From: Brienomyrus brachyistius
Lineage: Eukaryota > Chordata > Actinopteri > Osteoglossiformes > Mormyridae
Direction: 5' to 3'
Assembly (NCBI RefSeq): GCF_023856365.1
Contig: NW_026042482.1
Location: 124,001-188,000 of the forward strand
Length of the DNA stretch: 64,000 nt
Below the pieces are notes generated by a model, which had not been told where the DNA came from, did no database searches, and saw nothing but the letters and a program-made list of their open reading frames with translations. Of this stretch, positions 19,768 to 26,925 are shown in pieces. The position numbers were made by a program, and so were the translations under genes. How positions within the stretch are numbered: the stretch's first letter is position 1; every line of letters begins with the position of its first letter.

Positions 19768-22700
19768 ATTGGTTCAGATAGGCGACGGACAATCTGATTG
19801 GTTCAGATAGGCGACGGACAATCTGATTGGTTCAGATAGGCGACGGACAATCTGATTGGTTCAGATAGGCGACGGACAATCTGATTGGTTCAGATAGGCG
19901 ACGGACAATCTGATTGGTTCAGATAGGCGACGGACAATCTGATTGGTTCAGATAGGCGACGGACAATCTGATTGGTTCAGATAGGCGACGGACAATCTGA
20001 TTGGTTCAGATAGGCGACGGACAATCTGATTGGTTCAGATAGGCGACGGACAATCTGATTGGCTCAGATAGGCGACGGACAATCTGATTGGCTCAGATAG
20101 GCGACGGACAATCTGATTGGCTCAGATAGGCGACGGACAATCTGATTGGCTCAGATAGGCGACGGACAATCTGATTGGCTCAGATAGGCGACGGACAATC
20201 TGATTGGCTCAGATAGGCGACGGACAATCTGATTGGCTCAGATAGGCGACGGACAATCTGATTGGCTCAGATAGGCGACGGACAATCTGATTGGCTCAGA
20301 TAGGCGACGGACAATCTGATTGGCTCAGATAGGCGACGGACAATCTGATTGGCTCAGATAGGCGACGGACAATCTGATTGGCTCAGATAGGCGACGGACA
20401 ATCTGATTGGCTCAGATAGGCGACGGACAATCTGATTGGCTCAGATAGGCGACGGACAATCTGATTGGCTCAGATAGGCGACGGACAATCTGATTGGCTC
20501 AGATAGGCGACGGACAATCTGATTGGCTCAGATAGGCGACGGACAATCTGATTGGCTCAGATAGGCGACGGACAATCTGATTGGCTCAGATAGGCGACGG
20601 ACAATCTGATTGGCTCAGATAGGCGACGGACAATCTGATTGGCTCAGATAGGCGACGGACAATCTGATTGGCTCAGATAGGCGACGGACAATCTGATTGG
20701 CTCAGATAGGCGACGGACAATCTGATTGGCTCAGATAGGCGACGGACAATCTGATTGGCTCAGATAGGCGACGGACAATCTGATTGGCTCAGATAGGCGA
20801 CGGACAATCTGATTGGCTCAGATAGGCGACGGACAATCTGATTGGCTCAGATAGGCGACGGACAATCTGATTGGCTCAGATAGGCGACGGACAATCTGAT
20901 TGGCTCAGATAGGCGACGGACAATCTGATTGGCTCAGATAGGCGACGGACAATCTGATTGGCTCAGATAGGCGACGGACAATCTGATTGGCTCAGATAGG
21001 CGACGGACAATCTGATTGGCTCAGATAGGCGACGGACAATCTGATTGGCTCAGATAGGCGACGGACAATCTGATTGGCTCAGATAGGCGACGGACAATCT
21101 GATTGGCTCAGATAGGCGACGGACAATCTGATTGGCTCAGATAGGCGACGGACAATCTGATTGGCTCAGATAGGCGACGGACAATCTGATTGGCTCAGAT
21201 AGGCGACGGACAATCTGATTGGCTCAGATAGGCGACGGACAATCTGATTGGCTCAGATAGGCGACGGACAATCTGATTGGCTCAGATAGGCGACGGACAA
21301 TCTGATTGGCTCAGATAGGCGACGGACAATCTGATTGGCTCAGATAGGCGACGGACAATCTGATTGGCTCAGATAGGCGACGGACAATCTGATTGGCTCA
21401 GATAGGCGACGGACAATCTGATTGGCTCAGATAGGCGACGGACAATCTGATTGGCTCAGATAGGCGACGGACAATCTGATTGGCTCAGATAGGCGACGGA
21501 CAATCTGATTGGCTCAGATAGGCGACGGACAATCTGATTGGCTCAGATAGGCGACGGACAATCTGATTGGCTCAGATAGGCGACGGACAATCTGATTGGC
21601 TCAGATAGGCGACGGACAATCTGATTGGCTCAGATAGGCGACGGACAATCTGATTGGCTCAGATAGGCGACGGACAATCTGATTGGCTCAGATAGGCGAC
21701 GGACAATCTGATTGGCTCAGATAGGCGACGGACAATCTGATTGGCTCAGATAGGCGACGGACAATCTGATTGGCTCAGATAGGCGACGGACAATCTGATT
21801 GGCTCAGATAGGCGACGGACAATCTGATTGGCTCAGATAGGCGACGGACAATCTGATTGGCTCAGATAGGCGACGGACAATCTGATTGGCTCAGATAGGC
21901 GACGGACAATCTGATTGGCTCAGATAGGCGACGGACAATCTGATTGGCTCAGATAGGCGACGGACAATCTGATTGGCTCAGATAGGCGACGGACAATCTG
22001 ATTGGCTCAGATAGGCGACGGACAATCTGATTGGCTCAGATAGGCGACGGACAATCTGATTGGCTCAGATAGGCGACGGACAATCTGATTGGCTCAGATA
22101 GGCGACGGACAATCTGATTGGCTCAGATAGGCGACGGACAATCTGATTGGCTCAGATAGGCGACGGACAATCTGATTGGCTCAGATAGGCGACGGACAAT
22201 CTGATTGGCTCAGATAGGCGACGGACAATCTGATTGGCTCAGATAGGCGACGGACAATCTGATTGGCTCAGATAGGCGACGGACAATCTGATTGGCTCAG
22301 ATAGGCGACGGACAATCTGATTGGCTCAGATAGGCGACGGACAATCTGATTGGCTCAGATAGGCGACGGACAATCTGATTGGCTCAGATAGGCGACGGAC
22401 AATCTGATTGGCTCAGATAGGCGACGGACAATCTGATTGGCTCAGATAGGCGACGGACAATCTGATTGGCTCAGATAGGCGACGGACAATCTGATTGGCT
22501 CAGATAGGCGACGGACAATCTGATTGGCTCAGATAGGCGACGGACAATCTGATTGGCTCAGATAGGCGACGGACAATCTGATTGGCTCAGATAGGCGACG
22601 GACAATCTGATTGGCTCAGATAGGCGACGGACAATCTGATTGGCTCAGATAGGCGACGGACAATCTGATTGGCTCAGATAGGCGACGGACAATCTGATTG

Positions 22701-23165
22701 GCTCAGATAGGCGACGGACAATCTGATTGGCTCAGATAGGCGACGGACAATCTGATTGGCTCAGATAGGCGACGGACAATCTGATTGGCTCAGATAGGCG
22801 ACGGACAATCTGATTGGCTCAGATAGGCGACGGACAATCTGATTGGCTCAGATAGGCGACGGACAATCTGATTGGCTCAGATAGGCGACGGACAATCTGA
22901 TTGGCTCAGATAGGCGACGGACAATCTGATTGGCTCAGATAGGCGACGGACAATCTGATTGGCTCAGATAGGCGACGGACAATCTGATTGGCTCAGATAG
23001 GCGACGGACAATCTGATTGGCTCAGATAGGCGACGGACAATCTGATTGGCTCAGATAGGCGACGGACAATCTGATTGGTTCAGATAGGCGACGGACAATC
23101 TGATTGGTTCAGATAGGCGACGGACAATCTGATTGGTTCAGATAGGCGACGGACAATCTGATTGG
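19768..23165 (+). repeat. 29-bp satellite, left arm (about 117 copies)
   Basis: Perfect head-to-tail 29-bp units containing CAGATAGGCGACGGACAATC and CTGATTGG. Register moves two bases per 60-base line, confirming the 29-bp period. A GGTTCAG variant fills the first ten units (19,771-20,060), GGCTCAG the next 104 (20,061-23,076), and GGTTCAG the last three. Near-zero divergence implies recent amplification or gene conversion. Each unit has two CpGs. Not CRISPR: there are no variable spacers. Confidence 0.98.
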
Positions 23166-26100: not shown

Positions 26101-26925
26101 CCAATCAGATTGTCCGTCGCCTATCTGAGCCAATCAGATTGTCCGTCGCCTATCTGAGCCAATCAGATTGTCCGTCGCCTATCTGAGCCAATCAGATTGT
26201 CCGTCGCCTATCTGAGCCAATCAGATTGTCCGTCGCCTATCTGAGCCAATCAGATTGTCCGTCGCCTATCTGAGCCAATCAGATTGTCCGTCGCCTATCT
26301 GAGCCAATCAGATTGTCCGTCGCCTATCTGAGCCAATCAGATTGTCCGTCGCCTATCTGAGCCAATCAGATTGTCCGTCGCCTATCTGAGCCAATCAGAT
26401 TGTCCGTCGCCTATCTGAGCCAATCAGATTGTCCCGTCGCCTATCTGAGCCAATCAGATTGTCCGTCGCCTATCTGAGCCAATCAGATTGTCCGTCGCCT
26501 ATCTGAGCCAATCAGATTGTCCGTCGCCTATCTGAGCCAATCAGATTGTCCGTCGCCTATCTGAGCCAATCAGATTGTCCGTCGCCTATCTGAGCCAATC
26601 AGATTGTCCGTCGCCTATCTGAGCCAATCAGATTGTCCGTCGCCTATCTGAGCCAATCAGATTGTCCGTCGCCTATCTGAGCCAATCAGATTGTCCGTCG
26701 CCTATCTGAGCCAATCAGATTGTCCGTCGCCTATCTGAGCCAATCAGATTGTCCGTCGCCTATCTGAGCCAATCAGATTGTCCGTCGCCTATCTGAGCCA
26801 ATCAGATTGTCCGTCGCCTATCTGAGCCAATCAGATTGTCCGTCGCCTATCTGAACCAATCAGATTGTCCGTCGCCTATCTGAACCAATCAGATTGTCCG
26901 TCGCCTATCTGAACCAATCAGATTG
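23176..26925 (-). repeat. 29-bp satellite, right arm (about 129 copies, inverted)
   Basis: The same 29-bp unit on the opposite strand. Most units read CTATCTGAGCCAATCAG. A contiguous block of 40 units (24,005-25,140) reads CTAGCTGAGCC, and the last three units read GAACC. One unit lost four bases (about 23,410) and one gained a C (about 26,433). The variant block is absent from the left arm, so the arms are not mirror copies of one another. Confidence 0.98.

Follow-up and report, generated by a model that had tools for sequence, protein, structure and literature searches.

A probable MITE-born minisatellite turned palindrome at the putative unstable seam of a giant segmental amplification

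How does a minisatellite beside a gene come to run in two opposite orientations, and why is the resulting palindrome found again at other places of the same genome? This question is raised by a 64-kb stretch of DNA (hereafter the window; C202:124001-188000 of a 985-Mb assembly), in which two 29-bp arrays of 117 and 130 units meet head-on at 23166-23175. On the evidence given below, we consider it probable that a minisatellite born from a MITE has turned into a palindrome and forms the unstable seam of a giant segmental amplification, the fold-back origin of the palindrome being what we infer.

The first-pass annotation had described arrays of about 117 and about 130 units, in opposite orientation around a 10-nt loop, and this was confirmed by TRF and by a map of the unit variants. 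TRF placed the left array at 19768-23165 (period 29, 117.2 copies) and the right array at 23167-26926 (period 29, 129.8 copies). The arms are nearly but not wholly perfect: a gapped arm-against-arm alignment gave 98.3% identity over 3,399 columns, with 53 mismatches and 2 gap openings, and in the ungapped comparison the first mismatches lie 28, 57 and 86 bases from the loop. Unit variants were arranged differently in the two arms, and the variant map is not mirror-symmetric: the left arm, from outer to inner, has ten T units, 104 C units and three T units, and the right arm has three T units, C units, a 40-unit block with A9C and C units again; it also has two indels, an insertion of 1 base and a deletion of 4 bases. 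The unit contains an internal dyad, ATCTGA-TTGGC-TCAGAT, plus a repeated GATTG/CAATC. When folded as DNA, the centre (23136-23205) formed a hairpin of -35.9 kcal/mol, which was equalled by 0 of 200 shuffles; in a direct stretch of the array alone, neighbouring units paired with one another (z -3.2, with 2 of 200 shuffles as good). An exact-match scan for the unit in genome-contig and viral-contig collections gave 0 hits, and a six-frame Pfam scan of positions 1-19767 (stops as X) gave nothing above the curated cut-offs.

Table 1. Positions of the array, its flanks and related features in the window.
Feature	Position	Strand	Remarks
Left flanking repeat	14408..19767	+	Second copy on C27
Left arm	19768..23165	+	117 units of 29 bp, unit TTGGYTCAGATAGGCGACGGACAATCTGA; probably the derived, inverted arm
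Centre (loop), 10 nt, TCTATCTGAG	23166..23175	.	
Right arm	23176..26926 (TRF start 23167)	-	About 130 units, opposite orientation
MITE end adjoining right arm	26927..26986	-	26986-26956 correspond to terminal-repeat profile positions 1-31; also in C22 MITE
U2AF2-like gene without last coding exon	27051..35764	-	Penultimate exon starts ~120 bp from array
MITE A, palindromic	40281..40506	.	Family of the unit's source
MITE B, palindromic	43879..44130	.	Same family as MITE A

Searching the rest of the genome, as the first-pass annotation had proposed for the unit, showed that the structure is not confined to this place. A probe across the centre matched at least 33 places (40 of 85 candidates scored). 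We analysed 27 loci besides the window, 7 short ones (L002-L008) and 20 of 9.9 kb (L009-L028), which were selected by their match to the window centre, 22 by the whole query and 5 by part of it; five matched places (C321, C299, C214, C172 and C155) lie outside this survey. All 27 of these centre-matched loci had a + array followed by a - array. The flanks of the 20 long loci were 99.2-99.9% identical to those of the window over the whole fetched length, which was at most 4.2 kb for the left flank and 4.8 kb for the right. Pairs of sequences diverged on average by 0.05% in the left flank (1,180 bp compared in 19 sequences) and by 0.14% in the right flank (990 bp in 21 sequences). Window-type edges were present in 18 of the 18 long loci in which both edges are visible, and in the other two, L016 and L027, the one visible edge agreed with the window type. 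The arrays measured a few kb across loci, the shortest arm being 176 bp and the longest more than 5,403 bp, as two arms extend beyond the fetched stretch. The first-pass annotation had expected such an array to be unstable in replication, and the arrays are very variable between copies; what had been taken for a single object in the window is one among many copies carried by an amplified segment.

Since fold-back reads are known to yield palindromes, an assembly or fold-back read artefact has to be weighed, and the near identity of the copies outside the array would fit such an origin. However, neither at the centre nor farther out do the arms mirror each other, the same centres are shared by 28 loci whose arms differ in length, and in two orientations, and a one-off read artefact is hard to reconcile with the finding of this structure at 27 other loci. 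A simple fold-back read artefact was rejected from the variant map and this recurrence, and we regard an artefact of either kind as extremely unlikely.

The centres themselves bear on how the two arms were joined. Among the 28 loci including the window, the commonest centre, J1 (GATTGG joined to TCCGTCGCC), was found in 21, J1 minus 7 nt in 1 (the window), J3 in 4, J2 in 1 and J5 in 1. Between J2, J3 and J5 there are differences of 1-2 nt, and all three are centred on the dyad of the unit, as self-primed fold-back would give. J1 lies off the dyad axis, and so its origin could be end-joining or inversion rather than fold-back. Of the 14 long loci with J1, 5 have it in window orientation relative to the flanks and 9 have it reversed; for J3 the numbers are 2 and 2 (all among L009-L028). 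Certain marker units shift along with the centre: 'bc' units were located in the left arm of L019 (J1, window orientation) and in the right arm of L009, L010, L012, L013, L015, L017 and L018, and L011 was without them. L018 has J1 in window orientation yet 'bc' on the right, which breaks the rule that the markers follow the centre; it also has a private variant in both arms. We read the marker-unit pattern as exchange between arms at varying points, and the copy-to-copy differences of the arrays as the outcome of expansion, of a remade centre and, again, of such exchange.

The source of the unit was sought in the MITEs of the window. A profile was built from nothing but the arms of MITEs A and B (four in all) and scanned over the 64 kb; its best match outside these MITEs was the right end of the array (26986-26886), on the expected strand and from profile position 1 (E 3e-6). 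With a profile of the outer columns, the right array end was still the top match (18.7 bits, E 1.1e-4), the best of 40 Markov windows reaching 12.3 bits, and the score of the unit against the inner profile columns was reached by 0 of 1000 shuffled units. The array accordingly combines a MITE-like unit with an adjoining MITE end, the features of a MITE-derived minisatellite. Because it resembles the inner terminal repeat of the window's MITE family, the 29-bp unit has a source, and the earlier interpretation is incomplete: the unit seems to go back to a MITE terminal repeat, and an array in one orientation exists in a MITE on contig C22 (see below). At the left edge of the array, a candidate MITE end was rejected, as its weak full-profile match was gone with the outer profile. 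The left flanking repeat has a 97.5% identical copy on C27 that stops exactly at the array edge and is followed by unrelated DNA, which we labelled by eye as Tc1-like; therefore, the left edge of the array is the end of another repeat. A 12-bp ACACAAAAAATT at both array edges (19759-19770 and 26935-26946) was for this reason dropped as a target duplication; matches of at least 12 at edge pairs occurred in 2 of 20,000 random pairs and in 5 of 4,000 A+T-matched pairs.

On the right, the array adjoins a U2AF2-like gene, whose identity rests on tblastn, a Pfam scan of the exon in the right frame having given no hit. The last U2AF2 exon was found neither in the window nor in C119:61000-90700. In the genome, 3 of 6 candidates were matches (C22, C23 and C51). 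Those on C23 and C51 are paralogues, both 95% identical to the human query, and no MITE hit was found within the fetched 3.1 kb at either. The C22 exon (77%) is located 1.45 kb from a penultimate exon and is the sole match beside such an exon; the penultimate exon on C22 is 100% identical to that of the window (321-bp probe). In the 3.1 kb read around the C22 last exon (locus L093), a MITE lies between the two exons, and its two ends, both recognised by the profile, are inverted relative to each other (29.2 and 23.2 bits). Within this two-ended MITE, again as in a MITE-derived minisatellite, is an array of 22 units in a single orientation (14 units are 26 bp long and 8 are 29 bp long), with 0 inverted units at the locus. 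A candidate 9-bp target duplication of this MITE, TAAACACAG/TAAACATAA, agrees at 7 of 9 bases, a level that random 9-mer pairs reach in 207 of 20,000 cases. From exon to array, C22 has the sequence of the window save for one A in a run, and the probes of MITE A and of window position 54.0 kb are spaced on C22 as in the window. The layout of C22, this shared sequence and the probe spacing together indicate that the right arm of the window corresponds to the C22 array. The outermost right-arm units keep the T type of C22, and several other copies also keep G13A. We therefore consider C22 the likely progenitor, although in principle it could be a rescued copy; among the loci examined, no intermediate turned up, be it a short inverted arm at C22 or an amplified copy with its array in one orientation.

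Two other explanations for the inverted arms can be judged against C22. Half of a former head-to-tail array may have been inverted, with breakpoints in the middle and at the edge of the array. This was favoured from the window alone, in which T units flank the would-be breakpoint (three at the inner end of the left arm and three at the outer end of the right arm), and the position of J1 off the dyad axis agrees with it. However, both the MITE and C22 have type T, which would be expected at old array edges anyway, the dyad-centred J2, J3 and J5 are left unexplained, and on C22 the array is followed by the second MITE end and then the last exon, rather than by the left flank. Inversion as the sole origin was lowered by this arrangement, and it now appears improbable. 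A true foldback transposon, with the arrays as terminal inverted repeats of a mobile element that was inserted as a unit, would account for the MITE end at the right array edge and for the long inverted repeats containing tandem repeats in the window and in 27 of 27 loci; terminal repeats built of tandem repeats are known in Tetris and Tm1, as outlined in the reports on these elements. On the other hand, the 20 long loci share both flanks and hence are not independent insertions, the MITE end is present on the right only and not at the left array end, where a matching outer end would be needed, the visible edges are all of window type in place of a target-site duplication with differing flanks, and the likely progenitor has an array in one orientation. 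We consider such a transposon an unlikely source. Our best reading is that the right arm is the MITE array, that the inverted left arm is derived, and that the amplified segment ends inside the array.

This last point follows from the exons of the U2AF2-like gene. The penultimate exon has 263 candidate copies, with 40 of 40 scored at 100%; this exon has been multiplied and the last exon has not, and therefore the amplified segment ends inside the array. Probes from window positions 54.0 kb and 17.5 kb gave 234 and 299 candidates, respectively, and for each probe 40 of 40 scored were 100% identical. These numbers, as well as a further count of 1195, are first-look candidates, 40 of each having been scored. 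From the 28 palindrome loci and the exon matches on different contigs, there are at least 67 amplified copies besides C22. A piece at window 62.8-63.2 kb was identical on C101. On C119, one probe was 100% identical at four places on a single strand, 116-128 kb apart, and listed neighbours were spaced by about 124 kb on C14, 80 kb on C17, 61 kb on C12 and 174-195 kb on C96, with unscored copies possible between them. The four copies on C119 and the series on C14 and C17 have the form of a head-to-tail segmental array; opposite-strand neighbours were listed on C103, C11 and C16. Copies were located near contig ends on C8, C11, C16, C21, C22 and C27, and inside contigs on C2, C12, C17 and C20. 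Window 1.5-10.5 kb was 94-98.5% like probes from other copies, which agree mutually at 98.8-100% where they overlap.

Several further observations concern the segment. In the window (1500-15600), the switch from up to 6% divergence to near identity takes place between about 11 and 15.6 kb. The segment with the U2AF2-like and RGS-like genes occurs in tandem and on many contigs (C119 L042, L059, L060 and L061; C14, C17 and C96). Exons of the RGS gene, picked by eye and with DEP and DHEX domains, lie beside the U2AF2-like gene at 37850-40190 (+). An immunoglobulin V-set exon was found at about C119:71 kb (C119:61000-80800, L067/L068; Pfam E 4e-11) and a second Ig-like open frame, by eye, in L069; presumably, these exons resemble fish immune-type receptors. 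A provirus-like gag-pol region lies in L067-L068 (C119, about 73-79 kb). A tRNA-Asp gene (36323-36396, -) is situated between the amplified 27.0 and 54.0 kb probes and may be multiplied too. An array of a 227-bp unit (58832-60901, 8.9 copies) shares a piece of about 48 bp with 18465-18512, and a 46-bp tandem array (10549-11210, 14.4 copies) is also present at C202:60000 and C119:50000.

In CpG content, the array differs from the rest of the window. The array contains 492 CpG, with an observed/expected ratio of 1.02, as compared with 0.53 in 1-18500 and 0.60 in 26927-64000. Among 3,226 29-nt units from 21 loci, there were 18 kinds of substitution and 0 CpG transitions; because the units were counted by anchoring on GATTGG, changes inside that motif are invisible here, and two other anchors revealed 3 more kinds of change in GATTGG, in 13 units, again with no CpG transition. 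In the flanks, CpG transitions made up 4 of 9 changes on the left (3,700 bp, 11 loci) and 2 of 9 on the right (2,300 bp, 13 loci). The one-sided chance of 0/18 in the array against 6/18 in the flanks is about 0.01, calculated by hand from small numbers. The absence of CpG transitions suggests, at the level of sequence, either low germline methylation of the array or a very recent expansion. The motif TGATTGG, counted on either strand, is present 246 times in the window array as compared with 16 times in the rest of the window, and we take such motifs to be putative NF-Y/GATA sites. Both the enrichment and the missing CpG transitions could be signs of a maintained functional element, such as a chromatin element, an origin, an NF-Y/GATA site array or a source of dsRNA. 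However, arm length varies about thirty-fold and recent expansion can account for the homogeneity, so that maintenance for a function seems very unlikely. The regulatory role considered in the first-pass annotation finds no direct support either, as arm length and centre vary freely between copies with near-identical flanks. Most likely, the palindrome is no regulatory element but a by-product that has mechanical consequences.

Taken together, these data suggest the following course of events. A MITE in the last intron of the C22 U2AF2-like gene would have given rise, from part of its terminal repeat, to a head-to-tail array of 26-bp and then 29-bp units, and the amplified segments would stop within this MITE array; both steps are supported by the C22 locus and the exon copies. 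The array end may then have been resolved by fold-back synthesis or inverted joining, which would have placed an inverted second arm against the left-flank repeat; this is favoured by the unit, because of its internal dyad and repeated GATTG/CAATC. The composite is now found at many loci, partly in tandem, with near-identical flanks and varying arm length, centre and centre orientation, a step likewise supported by the survey. Lastly, the palindrome would be a break-prone seam that may have helped, or possibly driven, the amplification. In Drosophila, composite elements that have foldback ends are said to mobilise large segments. A stronger version, in which the array is the active edge of a giant composite amplicon in a vertebrate, and breakage and fold-back at the array would time and again have captured a multi-gene segment of about 100 kb, multiplied it to hundreds of near-identical copies and spread it to many chromosomes, is conceivable by analogy and rather doubtful.

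Vertebrate kilobase palindromes are hard to study from single copies as to their formation, persistence and change. Here, 28 versions have been sequenced in which the flanks are near-identical and most differences lie in the array; to judge from the candidate counts, there may be many more. With a likely progenitor and many derived copies in one genome, the passage from MITE to minisatellite, palindrome and large amplification becomes readable in order. A gene-bearing segment that is identical over the tested probes and present on many contigs, including chromosome-scale ones, is of interest in itself. In the literature searched, which consisted largely of titles and abstract openings with few subscription journals, no paper was recognised as this case; the ingredients are known, and their combination is new.

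The first ingredient is known from Xenopus, in which MITEs gave rise, from their interior or terminal repeat, to the tandem repeats Xstir and miDNA4, which then expanded (PMC12628747, PMC9659126). The array in this study is likewise probably MITE-born and expanded; unlike Xstir and miDNA4, which are described as tandem arrays, it has an inverted second arm and forms the edge of a large amplified segment. For the zebrafish MITE Angel, which shows intrastrand pairing, fold-back synthesis has been proposed (Izsvak et al. 1999, as cited in PMC12628747). As a teleost MITE with such pairing, Angel resembles the present family in these features. Foldback transposons such as Tetris (PMC4079207) and Tm1 (PMC3169594) have long inverted repeats of tandem units, and in Tetris the unit has sequence in common with the outer terminal repeat and has also expanded into satellites (PMC4079207). 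The inverted repeats described here are built of tandem units too; in contrast to the two matching outer ends and target duplications of Tetris and Tm1, they have one outer end and constant flanks. In the human macrosatellite DXZ4, long units also stand in tandem; its units measure 3 kb, whereas same-strand neighbours on C119 are 116-128 kb apart, comprise several genes and have copies on many contigs. A structural parallel is seen in the 'macro-dyad symmetries' of Tribolium TmSat1 and TmSat2, kilobase inverted sub-arrays with recurrent, conserved inversion sites, usually two per array (PMC13081366). The inverted-repeat array that the first-pass annotation singled out as rare is indeed unusual, although inverted satellite arrays of several kb had already been published in that work. 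As in Tribolium, kilobase inverted sub-arrays meet at recurrent sites (J1, J2, J3 and J5 in 28 loci). The Tribolium arrays are megabase putative pericentromeric satellites, whereas the array presented here is short, lies beside a gene, occurs once per amplified segment and has a likely source that could be located.
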